From Candidatus Parcubacteria bacterium (lineage in GTDB: Bacteria > Patescibacteriota > Patescibacteriia > UBA1558 > GWA2-36-10), in assembly GCA_030632225.1 (NCBI GenBank), contig DAOVVF010000046.1, positions 1-5,245 of the forward strand: 5,245 bases of DNA. The letters run 5' to 3'. This document shows positions 1 to 5,245 of the stretch, one piece after another (position 1 is the first letter of the stretch; every line of letters begins with the position of its first letter). The notes under the pieces were generated by a model. It saw only the letters and a program-made list of their open reading frames with translations, made no database searches and was not told where the DNA came from. A program made the translations under genes and the position numbers.

Positions 1-1336
1 CATCTACCGCCATACCAATCGATAGAATAAAGCCTGCTACACCAGCTAAAGTCATTACCACTGGAATTATTTCAAAAATAGCTAAAGTAATAAGAGCATA
101 AATAGCTAAAGTAATAACAGCTATTAAACCAGGTAAACGATAGAATAGTAACATAAATAAAGCGGCTGCAATTAAGCCAATAAGACCGGCTAGTAATGAT
201 TTCTGAACAGATTCTTGCCCCAGACTAGCTCCAACAGTTTGCTGACTAATTAACTCTATTGGTACTGGTAAAGCACCTAAATTTAAATCTTTAACTAATT
301 GTTTAGCTTCATCTATGCTAAAACGTCCTGATATCTGAGCGTTACCATCTTTAATTGGTTCCTGGACTATTGGATCAGAAATTAATATATCATCTAAGAA
401 AATACCAATCGGCTTACCAATATTATCAGCAGTTAATTGAGCAAATATATCTTTGCCTTCGTCATTAAACTCTAATAGAACCATTGGTTCTTGAGTATTC
501 TGTTGAAAACTTAGTTGAGCTTTGTTAACATGTTTACCGCCTAAACCTGTTACAACCCAGTTTAAATCAGCATCTTTTTTCTGGAATAGTATATGAGCTG
601 CATGTACTTCTATTTCACCGTCATCATTTAATCTTTCTTCTAGCTTTTTAATAATATGATAACCAAATTGAGATTCAATTAATTCAGAAGATATTTGATT
701 TACTTTTAGATCTCCAAAAATAGCTTTATCAAATTCTGGTACAAAAGTACCTTTAGTAACCCATGGTAAATCTCCTCCAATATCTTTAGAACCAGGATCT
801 TCATTATATTCATCAGCTAAAGTAGTAAAATCTTCTCCAGCTAAAACTCTATCTAATATTTCTTGAGCTTTATTTTTAACAATATCTTCTTCTAATTCTT
901 CATTAATTTCTATACTGCCTTCGGTTCTAAAATCTAAAGATGGTGTTCTATCAATTATTTTAATAGCTTCATTAACATCTTTAACACCAGCTAATTCAAC
1001 AATTATACGATAATTCTCTCCACTGTAGTTAGTTTGAACTATTGGTTCTGAAACACCATATATATTAATTCTACGCTCAATTACATCTCTAAGAGCTTCT
1101 ACACCTTCTTTTTTTTGCTGATCATCTAGATCGGAAACATCAGCTTGGTAGACTAAATGAGTACCACCCTGCAAATCTAAGCCTAGATGTACCTTAAAAT
1201 TACCAAACCAGCCTGGTGCTTTAGGGTAAATAATAAAACCGGCAAAAATTGCCAGTAAGATGATAAATGCAAATGTTGTACGTATTTTAGTAGTGGTTAC
1301 TTGTCCTCTACTAACTACCTTTTTGTATTTACTCAT
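1..1336 (-). CDS. secD: Protein translocase subunit SecD with an embedded parvulin-like domain (3' end outside window)
   Basis: SecD works with SecF in the membrane and uses the proton gradient to help pull proteins out of the SecYEG channel. The window holds the first 445 codons, from the ATG at 1336. In order: a basic N-terminus; TM1 (about residues 20-37); the SecD motif GLDLQGG (52-58); the first extracytoplasmic domain (P1); the stretch NIGKPIGIFLDD (305-316); TM2 (about 381-399), TM3 (402-420) and TM4 (425-443). The last full codon is the Asp of GMAVD (residue 445), the TM4 acidic residue tied to proton use in SecDF. Compared with E. coli SecD, the P1 loop between LDFR (134-137) and VVTGLGG (261-267) is expanded to about 120 residues by a PpiC/parvulin-like domain, annotated separately. 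The start is set by the first ATG, which sits 41 bases after ddl behind a promoter and has no Shine-Dalgarno sequence. The frame is intact. Whether SecF is fused or separate cannot be seen. Identification is very secure. Confidence 0.96.
   Translation of the reverse strand, partial: MSKYKKVVSRGQVTTTKIRTTFAFIILLAIFAGFIIYPKAPGWFGNFKVHLGLDLQGGTHLVYQADVSDLDDQQKKEGVEALRDVIERRINIYGVSEPIVQTNYSGENYRIIVELAGVKDVNEAIKIIDRTPSLDFRTEGSIEINEELEEDIVKNKAQEILDRVLAGEDFTTLADEYNEDPGSKDIGGDLPWVTKGTFVPEFDKAIFGDLKVNQISSELIESQFGYHIIKKLEERLNDDGEIEVHAAHILFQKKDADLNWVVTGLGGKHVNKAQLSFQQNTQEPMVLLEFNDEGKDIFAQLTADNIGKPIGIFLDDILISDPIVQEPIKDGNAQISGRFSIDEAKQLVKDLNLGALPVPIELISQQTVGASLGQESVQKSLLAGLIGLIAAALFMLLFYRLPGLIAVITLAIYALITLAIFEIIPVVMTLAGVAGFILSIGMAVD
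563..919 (-). other. PpiC/parvulin-like peptidyl-prolyl isomerase domain inserted in SecD P1, apparently permuted
   Basis: This is a protein domain inside secD, about residues 140-258. Parvulin hallmarks appear in this order: a helix ending in LAGEDFTTLADEYNEDPGS (165-183), GGDLPWV (187-193), KGTFVPEFDKAIF (195-207), and QFGYHIIK (223-230) with His227. Then comes EVHAAHILF (243-251) with His248. In ordinary parvulins the HIL-type strand is the first element and GYHII is near the end, so the order here is rotated. His227 and His248 would match the two conserved active-site histidines (Pin1 H157 and H59). Asp180 lies near the position of the catalytic Cys/Asp, and Phe198 and Phe202 near the substrate-pocket Met/Phe. 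GDLP replaces the usual GDLG. The inferred role is prolyl isomerisation or chaperoning of proteins emerging from the translocon. Loss of activity, leaving only a binding domain, is possible. Confidence 0.85.
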
Positions 1337-1346
1337 AAGTGCAACT

Positions 1347-1374
1347 ATTTTAGCATAATCTGAAATTTTGACAA
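1347..1374 (-). promoter_or_regulatory. Sigma-70-type promoter for secD
   Basis: Reading the minus strand, TTGTCA (1374-1369, five of six matches to the -35 consensus) is followed by a 16-base spacer and TAAAAT (1352-1347, five of six matches to the -10). A TG one base upstream makes it an extended -10 (TGCTAAAAT). It lies wholly in the 41-base gap between ddl and secD. The usual start point, about seven bases past the -10, falls near 1340, only about four bases ahead of the secD ATG. The transcript would then be nearly leaderless, which fits the missing Shine-Dalgarno sequence. This is a consensus reading, not a mapped start. Confidence 0.7.
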
Positions 1375-1377
1375 GCC

Positions 1378-2268
1378 CTAGACAGAATTGATCCAATCCT
1401 CTAATAAGGCTAGAAAATCCTTATTAGCAGCCTTTATAGCTTTAGGTAATAATGATTCTTTAGTTATACCAGGAATAGTATTTATTTCCAAAAAGTATAT
1501 CTTATTGTTCGCTACTATAAAATCAGAACGACTTAAGTGTCTAACTCCTAGTAATTGATGTATTTTAATACCTAAAGTTTGTAATTTCTTAGCTAAAATA
1601 TTATCTATCTGTGCTGGACAAACCTCATCTACTAAATTAGCATCATACTTGCTTTGATAATCAAAAAACTTATTCTTAGAAATTACTTGGATAACAGGCA
1701 AAGCTTTAGTCTGTTTAGCCTCTTCTATTACTGCTATAGTAAATTCATCTCCTTGAATATAGTCTTCTATTAATACCTTATTAGCATATTTAAATGCTTG
1801 TTCTAAAGCTTTATCTAGTTCTGATTGACTATTAACTATATTAATACCAATAGAACTACCACCTGGTTCTGGTTTAATAACTACAGGCTTTTCATATTTA
1901 ATTTTTTCTTTAGTAAGTAGTAATTTACTCTTAGGTGTTAATATACCTATTTGTTCTACTAATTGTTTAGTTAAATATTTATTCATAGCAACAGCATGAG
2001 CTTCTACATCTGAAAAGATAAAAGGTATACCTAGAGTCTTTAAAAAGCCTTGTACTACTCCATCTTCTCCTCCAGGACCATGAAAAACAGGAATAGCAAC
2101 ACTATATTCTTTATACTCTTTTAAAAACTTATCTAACTCCTTTGGTAAATCAAATAGCTCTACAGTATATTTTTCTTTAAGAATATCTACTATATTTGTA
2201 GCAGACCTTAAAGCAACTTCTCTTTCAGAGCTTTGTCCTCCGCTTAATACTGCAATTTTCTTTATCAT
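1378..2268 (-). CDS. ddl: D-alanine--D-alanine ligase
   Basis: Ddl is a cytoplasmic ATP-grasp enzyme that joins two D-alanines for the peptidoglycan stem peptide. The protein has 296 residues, close to the 306 of E. coli DdlB. Visible motifs: GGQSSEREV, whose Glu15 matches the catalytic Glu15 of DdlB; HGPGGEDGVVQG (63-74); NKYLTK, with Lys97 an ATP-binding lysine; VIKP (Lys132); GGSSIG (136-141, the serine loop); SKY (Tyr208, the DdlB Tyr216 position typical of D-Ala rather than D-lactate specificity); RSD with Arg247 and Asp249; and LEIN, with metal ligands Glu261 and Asn263, followed by TIPGIT. I chose the ATG at 2268 because it places IAVLSGG at the normal family distance from the N-terminus. 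A TTG at 2286 would add six residues and overlap the gene upstream. The ATG lies one base past the methyltransferase stop, with a weak purine run (AAGAGA) ahead of it. It is probably the last gene of the operon. Confidence 0.97.
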   Translation of the reverse strand: MIKKIAVLSGGQSSEREVALRSATNIVDILKEKYTVELFDLPKELDKFLKEYKEYSVAIPVFHGPGGEDGVVQGFLKTLGIPFIFSDVEAHAVAMNKYLTKQLVEQIGILTPKSKLLLTKEKIKYEKPVVIKPEPGGSSIGINIVNSQSELDKALEQAFKYANKVLIEDYIQGDEFTIAVIEEAKQTKALPVIQVISKNKFFDYQSKYDANLVDEVCPAQIDNILAKKLQTLGIKIHQLLGVRHLSRSDFIVANNKIYFLEINTIPGITKESLLPKAIKAANKDFLALLEDWINSV

Positions 2269-2269
2269 A

Positions 2270-3046
2270 TTATCTCTTAATAGCAAAGCATTGTATAGCC
2301 ATGCCTAAGTTTTTAAATAGTTTAGCTAAATATTTATGTTCCCATTCTAGATACTTAGCATATTTACTTAACCATTTTTCATTTTCCCATCTACTAAAGT
2401 AATCATAAGTATAATATTGTTTTAGGTCAAATCCTGTTTTAGTAATCTGTTTTTTTAATACTTTAGGTATATATTTCTCAGCATCAGGCTCTATTAATTC
2501 TTCAGCTATACTTTTACTAAATAATTTAATTAATAGTCTATCTATGATCCAGATATAGAAAAAAGGATTATATAGCTTCATAAACTGTTTATTAGGCTCT
2601 CCTAGGAGTATAAATACACCATTAGGCTTTAATACTCTATAGCTTTCTTTTAATGTCTCTTTAACAGCAAAAAAATGATGCAAAGAACCATTAATAATTA
2701 CCATATCAAAATAATTATCTTGATATGGTAGCTTAATAACTTCAGCACAACTTAATTTTAATTGAGGATATTTTTGTTTAGCTATCTTTAGTACTTCATT
2801 AGACTGATCAACACCATAGACTTCTTTAGATATCTCTAACAACTCATTACTCAGCCTACCTGTACCACAACCTAAATCTAAACAACGTTCTATTTTTCTA
2901 CCTTTTAGAAACTTTTTTAAGTTATTAAAATTCCAAGTATCAACAACTTTAGCACTGTTTGGTTCAACATGCCATTGATCATACTTTTCCGCCGTTTTGT
3001 TATAGTAATCTTTCTGTTCTTTACTTTTAACAGAATAATTATTCAT
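2270..3046 (-). CDS. Class I SAM-dependent methyltransferase (Methyltransf_11/UbiE-like), substrate unknown
   Basis: This 258-residue protein has a Rossmann methyltransferase core. It opens with YYNKTAEKYDQW (14-25), a common lead-in of UbiE-like enzymes. Motif I is LDLGCGTGR (56-64), binding S-adenosylmethionine. The acidic residue after strand 2 is Asp80 in YGVDQS. The post-II segment is AEVIKLPYQDNYFDMVI (101-117), then GSLHHF (120-125), where the HH is typical of this class, and VLKPNGVFILLGEPN (138-152). The C-terminal 100 residues are specific to this protein. They contain a hydrophobic, probably amphipathic stretch (about 155-176, FFYIWIIDRLLIKLF) and many aromatic residues, which could favour a lipid or membrane-bound substrate; that is only inference. 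The ATG overlaps the stop of the beta-propeller gene by 8 bases, so translation is probably coupled, and ddl follows after one base. Its envelope neighbours hint at an envelope substrate. No specific gene name is justified. Confidence 0.9.
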   Translation of the reverse strand: MNNYSVKSKEQKDYYNKTAEKYDQWHVEPNSAKVVDTWNFNNLKKFLKGRKIERCLDLGCGTGRLSNELLEISKEVYGVDQSNEVLKIAKQKYPQLKLSCAEVIKLPYQDNYFDMVIINGSLHHFFAVKETLKESYRVLKPNGVFILLGEPNKQFMKLYNPFFYIWIIDRLLIKLFSKSIAEELIEPDAEKYIPKVLKKQITKTGFDLKQYYTYDYFSRWENEKWLSKYAKYLEWEHKYLAKLFKNLGMAIQCFAIKR

Positions 3047-5075
3047 TTAAATCTAGTTCATTAACTCTTTCCCAGTTTGATTCATCTAAGACAATTATGT
3101 CATTCTGTCCAATAATATACATATAGTCATTTAAATAGACAGCTCTTTTAGTATTAGTTTGACTAATAGCTTTAGCTAATTCTAACTTGTCATTAGCATA
3201 GGAAAAGATATAGGCTCCTTTAGTACCTGGTAAAAAGAATACTTGATGTTTGTCATCTTGTAAGAAAGCATGATGATCATACAAAGATTCAGAGTGATAT
3301 TCATCTAAAGTATATTTATCTATTTCTTTAGGATCTGCTGGATTAGATACATCAAAGTAAGATAGTTTTAACTGAGAACCTTCTTTACCAATACCTAATA
3401 TCTTATTTTCCTTAATTGGATGCAAGTAAGAAGAATAACCAGGAATCTTTAATTCTCCTTTCATTTGTGGTCTACTAGGATTAGATAAGTCTAAGACATA
3501 GAAAGGATCTATTTGTCTAAAGGTTACTAAATAGCCTTTGTCAGCTATAAATCTAACAGAATAGATTCTTTCTTCTAAACCTAAATTTAGAACAGAACCT
3601 TTAATCTTTAAATTCTTGTCGAGCACATAAACATCATTAGCACTTTCAGTATTAACTAAGAAATTACCGGAAATAGTAGTAGCTATTCTTAAATGCCCTT
3701 GATACTCGTCTAAAGAAAATTGATTTAAAGGAGTACCTGGTACATTACCATTAGCTTTTACATCTAAACTATCAAGATCTATCTTAACTATTTCTGTCTT
3801 TACAATATTCCTCATATGTTTTTTGTAGTACTCTATCATTCTATTCTCCATTTCATTATTTATCCTTAATCTTTCATCCTTATCAAGAGAATTCATATAT
3901 TGGTCCATTAAAATACTGTACTCAGTCATTTTACTTTGCGGACTAATATCATAATTATTGATCTTGCTTAATTTAATAGTTAATTCTACAGGAAATAGGT
4001 CAGTAGCTTCTGATTGGATAAAATCAAGCATAAAATCTAACATGTTAATACTATGATTGTAGGTAACATACAAAGATTCAGGAGACATATAGATAATAGA
4101 AGAATAACTAGCTGATAGGAAAGAAACAGTATCTTTTACTTCTCCAGAGTTAATATCTATCTTCATAGCAGTTAAAGTACTATCAGAAGGAATATATGGC
4201 ACTGGATGATATATATCACTACAAGCTATATCAAGAGCTCTGTCATCGACAAATAAAGGCCTGATAGGGCAAGGTGTTATAGGGTTAACTCTAGTACTGG
4301 TAACTATATATATTTCATTATTATATAATCTTGAAGTAAGTATATATGTATTGTCTTCTAATCTAATAGTCCATTTCTTACTTGGATTAATCTTGTCACT
4401 AACATCATAGCCATATACCTTATTAGTTCTGTTATCAAAAACTACTAAAGTATTATCTGATAATAGTAAATTACCACTAGCTTCTATACTAGAATCAATT
4501 TTTAAGTCATCTACTGGCCAAGCATCTATTAAATTAGTTTCTAAATCAGAATATCTAGCAGGCATTCCAATTTCAGCATTTATTAACCCTGGTCCAGATC
4601 TAAAAACAGGACCATAGAATAATTCATTAGAAAAATATATTTCTTGTCCATCTGTTTTAACTAAATCAGGTTCATCAATGCCAACTACTTGTACATTAGT
4701 AGCTGATACTCTATCTGCTGTTTCACCGCCTCCACCTCTGCCTACTGCTTCGCTAAGCATTACATCTTGATCTAACATTGGTTCTACAGCAAATCCTCTA
4801 TTAATACCAAAACCAAAAGGAGCTGATTCACCAGCTTTTTCTAAATATTCTTTAAACTCATCTGCAGAACTAAATTTAACTATTTTAGCAGGCTCATCTA
4901 ATTCTCCTAAAGAACTAACTAAACCTGTTAATGAAGACAAATTGTATTTATTCTCAGGATTTTGAGTATTTCTTATTATTAAAGCTAGACTTAAAGCGAA
5001 AATAAGGATCAAAAGTATCATAAAAACTGGGCTACTGCCTAGTCTTTTTAGCTTATTCTTTTTTCTTTTTTTCAT
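3039..5075 (-). CDS. Membrane-anchored extracytoplasmic beta-propeller domain protein (COG4880 / Beta_propel family)
   Basis: The 678-residue protein has a strongly basic N-terminus (KKRKKNKLKR) and one hydrophobic segment (about 15-34) with no clear cleavage site, so it is probably a signal anchor with the rest outside the cell. After a low-complexity stretch (RGGGGETADR, 113-122) comes the family entry motif ATNVQVVGIDEPDLVKTDG (125-143). Other blocks I recognise from COG4880 proteins are NQFSLDEYQGHLRIATT (451-467), SVRFIADKGYLVTFRQIDPF (506-525), LDLSNPSRP (528-536), ELKIPGYSSYLHPI (541-554), DHHAF (600-604) and RAVYLNDYMYIIG (644-656). These are propeller blades distantly related to WD40. 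A charged helical stretch (about 375-426) interrupts the blades. The only two cysteines, C269 and C285, could form a disulfide. Length is normal for the family. The molecular function of the family is unknown to me; binding or scaffolding is plausible. It is the first gene of the proposed operon. The start is the ATG at 5075, which gives a good anchor; no Shine-Dalgarno sequence precedes it. Confidence 0.9.
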   Translation of the reverse strand: MKKRKKNKLKRLGSSPVFMILLILIFALSLALIIRNTQNPENKYNLSSLTGLVSSLGELDEPAKIVKFSSADEFKEYLEKAGESAPFGFGINRGFAVEPMLDQDVMLSEAVGRGGGGETADRVSATNVQVVGIDEPDLVKTDGQEIYFSNELFYGPVFRSGPGLINAEIGMPARYSDLETNLIDAWPVDDLKIDSSIEASGNLLLSDNTLVVFDNRTNKVYGYDVSDKINPSKKWTIRLEDNTYILTSRLYNNEIYIVTSTRVNPITPCPIRPLFVDDRALDIACSDIYHPVPYIPSDSTLTAMKIDINSGEVKDTVSFLSASYSSIIYMSPESLYVTYNHSINMLDFMLDFIQSEATDLFPVELTIKLSKINNYDISPQSKMTEYSILMDQYMNSLDKDERLRINNEMENRMIEYYKKHMRNIVKTEIVKIDLDSLDVKANGNVPGTPLNQFSLDEYQGHLRIATTISGNFLVNTESANDVYVLDKNLKIKGSVLNLGLEERIYSVRFIADKGYLVTFRQIDPFYVLDLSNPSRPQMKGELKIPGYSSYLHPIKENKILGIGKEGSQLKLSYFDVSNPADPKEIDKYTLDEYHSESLYDHHAFLQDDKHQVFFLPGTKGAYIFSYANDKLELAKAISQTNTKRAVYLNDYMYIIGQNDIIVLDESNWERVNELDLNE

Positions 5076-5102
5076 ATTATTAGGTTAATTATTGGTTATT
5101 GT

Positions 5103-5130
5103 ATTATAGCATACATCTAATTACCGCCAA
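5103..5130 (-). promoter_or_regulatory. Sigma-70-type promoter for the beta-propeller / methyltransferase / ddl operon
   Basis: On the minus strand, TTGGCG (5130-5125, four of six matches to the -35) lies inside the last codons of uppS. It is followed by a 16-base spacer and a perfect TATAAT (5108-5103) with an upstream TG (TGCTATAAT, extended -10). The expected start is near 5096, leaving a leader of about 21 bases before the ATG at 5075. That leader is A/T-rich and has no Shine-Dalgarno sequence. The extended -10 closely matches the one ahead of secD. The call rests on consensus and position only. Confidence 0.65.
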
Positions 5131-5245
5131 AACGCCTTTGTCTGCTATTAAATTCATCAATAGCTATATCAAAATCTTTAGTACTAAAAGCTGGCCAATG
5201 CTTTTTAGGAAAATATAGTTCACTATATATAGATTGCCAGGTTAA
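5117..5245 (-). CDS. uppS: Isoprenyl transferase / undecaprenyl diphosphate synthase, C-terminal 42 residues only
   Basis: UppS condenses isopentenyl diphosphate onto farnesyl diphosphate to make the C55 carrier lipid for peptidoglycan and other envelope polymers. Only the end is in the window; the 5' part lies beyond the right edge. The 42 visible residues begin LTWQSIYSELYF and end RQRRFGGN before a TAG stop. These match the family's conserved C-terminus: WQ..Y.E, with the Glu (E213 of E. coli UppS) that takes part in catalysis and metal binding, then the WP.F segment (HWPAF here, WPDF in E. coli), then the (R)RFGG tail. The end is normal and not truncated. The next gene starts 41 bases downstream, and the -35 of its likely promoter overlaps these final codons. 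Cytoplasmic, membrane-associated. The short fragment is still distinctive. Confidence 0.95.
   Translation of the reverse strand, partial: LTWQSIYSELYFPKKHWPAFSTKDFDIAIDEFNSRQRRFGGN

Follow-up and report, generated by a model that had tools for sequence, protein, structure and literature searches.

The secD gene and the parvulin domain inside it

The window analysed here is a whole stretch of 5,245 nucleotides from a Candidatus Parcubacteria bacterium (assembly GCA_030632225.1, contig DAOVVF010000046.1, positions 1 to 5,245; the source genome is 82.8% complete), and the gene in question is secD, which lies at 2..1336 on the minus strand. Its ATG is at 1336, residues 1-445 are encoded in the window and the C-terminus lies beyond it, and the protein database holds the full-length copy (P0002) of 549 amino acids (aa). 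The product matches the TIGR01129 secD model with 260.1 bits (cut-off 244.4), PF07549, PF21760, PF22599 and PF02355 are all above their cut-offs, and the named relatives near the top of the matches listed come from Candidatus Komeilibacteria (71-72% identity). A PpiC-type parvulin domain is found within the P1 domain of this SecD, at residues 144-252 from helix 1 to strand 1 (581..907, minus strand), flanked by the two pieces of P1, namely SecD_1st (residues 80-138) and the P1 head PF22599 (residues 265-358). The domain is recognised by PF13616 (Rotamase_3, residues 145-234, 83.5 bits against a cut-off of 22.5) and PF00639 (Rotamase, residues 147-230, 68.7 bits against 21.7). For a SurA-like N-terminal domain, no SurA_N match was found in SecD up to an E value of 1.

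A preliminary description of the window had noticed that the motif GYHII stands before EVHAAHILF in this domain and had read the order as a circular permutation. The translation confirmed the observation: GYHII covers residues 225-229 (window 650-664) and EVHAAHILF residues 243-251 (window 584-610, minus strand), with the linker ERLNDDGEI (residues 234-242) between them. The canonical parvulin order is beta-alpha3-beta-alpha-beta2 with strand 1 first; in SecD strand 1 comes last, and the domain is therefore classed as a permuted variant, not an ordinary parvulin. The PF00639 match begins only at profile position 12, which means that the domain lacks the N-terminal strand at its front.

Conservation was counted in the best 120 of 7996 database matches, that is P0002 and 119 others. 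It turned out that H227 is a histidine in 120 of 120 SecDs and H248 in 119 of 120 (the exception is P0071), so both histidines whose conservation the description had proposed to check are kept in homologues. E243 is E in 119 of 120. Other kept positions are D189 (104 of the 120 have D and 14 have E), F202 (F in 113 of them) and 222, where all 120 have S or T; we take these to be equivalent to active-site residues of parvulins. Strand 4 is joined to strand 1 by a linker that occurs in just two lengths, differing by a single residue (92 and 28 of the 120 SecDs). A HIL-like strand upstream of the core, which the description had likewise noted to be absent, was found in 0 of 120 SecDs by a motif search of the 60 residues lying 60-120 before GYH. 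The sequence establishes that, within SecD P1, the core is followed by strand 4 (GYHII), a short turn and strand 1 (EVHAAHILF) and that both histidines are conserved, and the conservation of H227, H248 and E243 excludes that the motifs stand in this order by chance.

The order was also examined by rotating the sequence. When residues 238-258 were put first, the PF13616 score rose from 87.0 to 95.6 bits and the PF00639 score from 71.2 to 76.7 bits, the latter match now running from profile position 1, and no rise was given by a shuffled strand, a neighbouring segment or the native upstream segment (PF13616 86.0-87.3; PF00639 71.9-72.2). With a canonical-foldase profile of 45 sequences, placing the HIL strand first raised the score of 187 of 188 permuted domains (119 of 120 SecD domains and 68 of 68 free-standing ones), and the mean gain of the shuffled-strand controls, 20 per domain, was below 0.

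For the SecD models, 70 of the 120 SecDs served as input. The domain was folded in isolation because structure searches with the full-length model were dominated by SecDF and by members of the same transporter superfamily. The isolated domain has a predicted local distance difference test score (pLDDT) of 93-98 across residues 150-249 and matches solved parvulins. Its elements, all on the minus strand, follow in the order helix 1 (residues 144-165; 842..907), helix 2, strand 2 (residues 189-194; 755..772), helix 4, strand 4 (residues 225-236; 629..664; with GYHII and H227, codon 656-658) and the relocated strand 1 (residues 242-252; 581..613; with EVHAAHILF and H248, codon 593-595), and the last two are separated by a five-residue turn (residues 237-241; 614..628). 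In the models these two strands would form a hairpin with strand 1 beside strand 4, as in ordinary parvulins, and H227 and H248 would, to judge by these strands and the shortness of the turn between them, sit together in space.

In the full-length model both chain ends of the domain run into SecD P1 strands, as had been expected: strand 134-139 (LDFRTE; 920..937, minus strand) is the entry to the insert, and P1 resumes past it with strand 260-266 (539..559, minus strand). No strand 1 lies between residue 139 and helix 1 in the full-length or isolated-domain models. The description had named an alternative strand 1 at 131-150 as counter-evidence, and none was found: residues 130-143 have a pLDDT below 50 and form no strand in the isolated domain. 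Ten SecDs that lack the insert were picked from 40, and in them T[PA]xL[ES]F passes directly into T-x-L-[TN]-G, joining both P1 segments; since these SecDs keep the segment, residues 131-137 are SecD's own P1 strand.

Permuted foldases and nested SecDs

Two kinds of relatives were not foreseen in the preliminary description, namely permuted free-standing foldases and SecDs with two nested parvulins. With the permuted foldase L017 as query, 4979 matches were obtained and the best 120 were taken, all SurA-like membrane foldases: 75 are permuted, 45 canonical and none has both strands, a 75:45 ratio that is biased, the query itself being permuted. The motif count gave 68 permuted, 45 canonical and 7 uncalled foldases, and these 7 of 120 were assigned by eye; a looser motif produced spurious second matches in the N-domain of five. 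Four foldases scanned with Pfam all have SurA-like N-domains, and Rotamase starts from position 1 in the two canonical and from position 10 in the two permuted ones. The canonical L016 and the permuted L017 carry the same family code and have the C-terminal tail IHNPF in common. The permuted foldases P0175, P0176 and P0179 have lost the one histidine along with the other (GFY and RARN), and such keeping or losing of the two as a pair supports circular permutation.

In the foldase tree (66 rows picked at 60% identity, strand 1 excluded, the long-branch rows L012, L020 and L022 removed; L030 has no motif), there are 5 changes of order, of which starred branches force at least 4, and a single change occurs in 0 of 200 bootstrap trees. 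The approximately unbiased (AU) test did not reject one permuted foldase clade (p 0.0795). Judged from these sequences, repeated permutation among the foldases is likely. The tree of parvulin cores (86 columns, with some labels wrong as they were set from the profile start, in 6 single SecDs and P0131) is too poorly resolved to address a shared origin of the SecD and free-standing permuted domains.

A query of hairpin plus P1 head, by which SecDs lacking the insert may be picked up as well, matches 365 of 380 genomes of the class. A survey of 80 loci of a genome collection gave a SecD frame from 74 and none from 6. Among the 74 frames, 17 have one parvulin match lacking strand 1, 14 have two matches, 3 have a complete match alone and 40 have none, and all 14 with two matches present the match lacking strand 1 before the complete one. 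L142, among the 17 single-match frames, appears nested on inspection. The SecDs of about 690 aa consist of core 1, HIL, core 2 and a HIL-like strand.

For the histidine count, 52 loci were chosen by a frame length of 667-748 aa and 50 were usable (L085 was dropped for a wrong frame and L100 as a single permuted form; L054 and forms above 800 aa are outside the count). The histidines of the middle HIL strand and the second GYH are both kept in 50 of 50 nested SecDs, and for the first GYH and the last strand both are lost in 45 of 50, both kept in 3 and one kept in 2. The overlap for the outer histidines is 3 of 4 (chance p 0.0008, with related genomes counted as independent). These fates pair the middle strand with the second core and the first core with the last strand, so that the hairpin of a permuted parvulin encloses a canonical one. 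In L065, a nested SecD of 1089 aa, both members of the inner histidine pair are lost as well (RIL and GYN), and L050, L052 and L122 have a permuted domain alone with both histidines gone. Loci without a GYH motif in any frame are L014, L050, L052 and L065; L014 was rejected as a parvulin SecD, its frame not being a parvulin.

Besides, 18 SecD frames show only a complete canonical unit above threshold. The spacing from the GG motif to the unit is 187-303 residues in these frames and 92-117 residues in single permuted SecDs, and by this measure they have room for a decayed first core; a clean single canonical SecD was not seen among the SecD frames examined. The history that we favour, with some reserve, is that parvulins were naturally and repeatedly permuted in Patescibacteria, their strands 1 and 4 being antiparallel neighbours and a short turn sufficing to join them, that SecD probably took up a permuted one, and that in many lineages a canonical one was later nested in its turn, the inner domain keeping the site and the outer one serving as a scaffold without both histidines.

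Several other forms were seen in the survey. The SecD frames of L062, L063, L070 and L175 (810-1149 aa) have larger or more inserts in P1. L115 encodes a SecD with one permuted parvulin; its contig is titled Lysobacteraceae and is possibly wrongly binned. The SecDs of L176 and L178 (623 and 633 aa) have long P1 inserts and no parvulin profile match; L178 resembles a decayed permuted parvulin, and L176 (titled Dehalococcoidia) has a different insert.

Weighing the explanations

We consider it highly probable that this SecD contains a PpiC-type parvulin with its His-bearing first strand last, predicted to have a circularly permuted fold and likely to isomerise prolyl bonds in chains that emerge from the Sec channel. 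The permutation proposed in the preliminary description has thus gained support from the rotation gain, the models, the canonical and permuted foldases, the paired fate of the histidines and the no-insert SecDs. Several points weigh against this view. The rotation gain is modest, and the best single shuffles reach 12.9 bits in SecD and 6.2 bits in the foldases. The N-terminal part of the canonical profile is stretched over the upstream P1 segment in 6 of 120 single SecDs (start before position 9). The hairpin is deduced from two long predicted strands and a short turn, from which both the pairing and the His227-His248 distance are inferred. In E. coli SurA, the tandem parvulins also read GFHILKVND..EVHARHIL at the joint of SurA P1 and P2, and motif order alone is therefore no proof of permutation; in sequence, the SecD permutation is told from a SurA-type tandem by the missing upstream strand and the missing downstream core. 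With respect to catalysis, longer SecDs retain outer parvulin domains that have lost both histidines, and one paper notes that the importance of the PpiD parvulin domains has been questioned (PMC9643414).

The SurA joint is also what would speak for EVHAAHILF being the relic of a second, truncated tandem parvulin, which lies outside the first domain and merely bridges back to the P1 sheet, and in some relatives the residues past the strand (KTKTEAD, KTKSEAD) resemble the loop after a canonical strand 1. Such a relic is very unlikely: H248 and a turn of almost fixed length would not be conserved to this degree in it, none of the 120 SecDs offers the core another strand 1, and in the isolated model 242-252 follows immediately on strand 4 and is predicted with confidence to be a strand. 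With regard to origin, the relic idea is compatible with a permuted domain. It is extremely improbable that the domain is a canonical parvulin whose strand 1 is the SecD strand 134-139, the HIL strand being extra. This strand does stand before helix 1 in the full-length model and the profile is stretched over it in the few SecDs mentioned above, but the segment occurs in 10 of 10 aligned no-insert SecDs (8 reading TPxLEF), is part of the stretch left without a strand in the isolated domain, and contains no histidine. Just as improbable is an exchange in which the HIL strand of one SecD fills the slot of another copy; terminal-strand exchanges occur in other proteins as a matter of general knowledge, but the five-residue turn 237-241 favours pairing within the same chain, and the single-chain model is confident.

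The most serious competitor, though still an unlikely one, accepts the permuted fold and takes it as a non-catalytic module of SecD for substrate holding or spacing. It is favoured by the outer domains of nested SecDs, which persist although 45 of 50 lack both histidines, by L122, L050 and L052, which keep a histidine-less permuted domain without any inner domain, by L065 with its inner pair lost, and by the doubt cast on the catalytic weight of the PpiD parvulin in parts of PMC9643414. SecDs persisting without any histidine pair indicate that the domain can be retained for another reason. On the other side, SecDs of the window type keep both histidines together with D189, F202 and S/T 222, and the inner pair is kept in all 50 counted nested SecDs. 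A catalytic permuted parvulin is the reading we prefer for the window.

Genomic setting, proposed working and known systems

The gene immediately upstream of secD, in the same orientation, encodes a D-alanine--D-alanine ligase (window 1378-2286, minus; PF07478, PF01820), and it is followed by genes for a class I methyltransferase (window 2270-3046, minus; PF08241), a 678-aa protein with a beta-propeller domain (window 3039-5075, minus; PF09826, 364.5 bits) and undecaprenyl diphosphate synthase (window 5120-5245, minus; PF01255), of which only the C-terminal end is present.

In the family of the window, a PF00639 match occurs in 20 of 21 genomes, and in each of the 20 the best match shares its frame with the SecD P1 head. 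Of these 20 genomes, 15 have no second PF00639 match and 5 have one weak second match in a frame of about 300 aa; the SecD parvulin is often the only parvulin found in the family, several genomes of which are incomplete. Cyclophilins are present in 17 of 21 genomes, and the SecD parvulin is therefore not the sole prolyl isomerase.

The permutation would place the ends of the domain where insertion into P1 suits. The conserved residues suggest that the parvulin is catalytic, and as part of the outer domain of SecD it would meet substrates while SecDF pulls chains leaving SecYEG. By analogy, a single SecD would do the job of a separate PpiD beside SecDF in E. coli. The domain may have originated from a tandem or duplicated parvulin array which lost its first strand and last core.

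A bacterial group would thus have a likely prolyl isomerase, as predicted from sequence, inside its Sec motor, where it would likely help newly exported proteins to fold on leaving the export channel. If this is true, the PpiD-SecDF partnership of E. coli exists here as one polypeptide, and the role of prolyl isomerisation in SecDF-driven export becomes testable. Natural canonical and permuted pairs of one enzyme family, together with a nested form, make the cost and use of permutation directly testable. What's more, profile searches which expect strand 1 first clip permuted domains without warning.

In the literature, mostly openly accessible and at the level of listings, no permuted parvulin or parvulin in SecD was described, and no paper was found that pairs "parvulin" with the term "circular permutation" or "circularly permuted". 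Among solved structures, PDB 8HM3 and 8HM4 (title PPIase-BfUbb, presumably from B. fragilis) likely share the permuted strand order; their strand assignment is tentative, since the VIA chain ranges reach residues 392 and 384 and part of the aligned residues thus sits late in the sequence. Since they are a likely precedent, we do not call the permuted order as such wholly new; they represent a free-standing protein, not SecD. Compared with canonical parvulins, such as the PrsA peptidyl-prolyl isomerase (PPIase) domain, SurA, PpiD, Pin1 and CsPin, strand 1 is C-terminal here and the domain lies inside SecD P1. Compared with SecD and SecDF (3AQP, 3AQO), this SecD differs by the parvulin in P1, which to our knowledge the solved SecDFs do not carry. 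A functional parallel is E. coli PpiD, described in PMC9643414 as a parvulin protein bound to the membrane, in contact with SecD and working together with SecDF; PpiD is a separate protein, whereas the parvulin here is part of SecD itself and is permuted.
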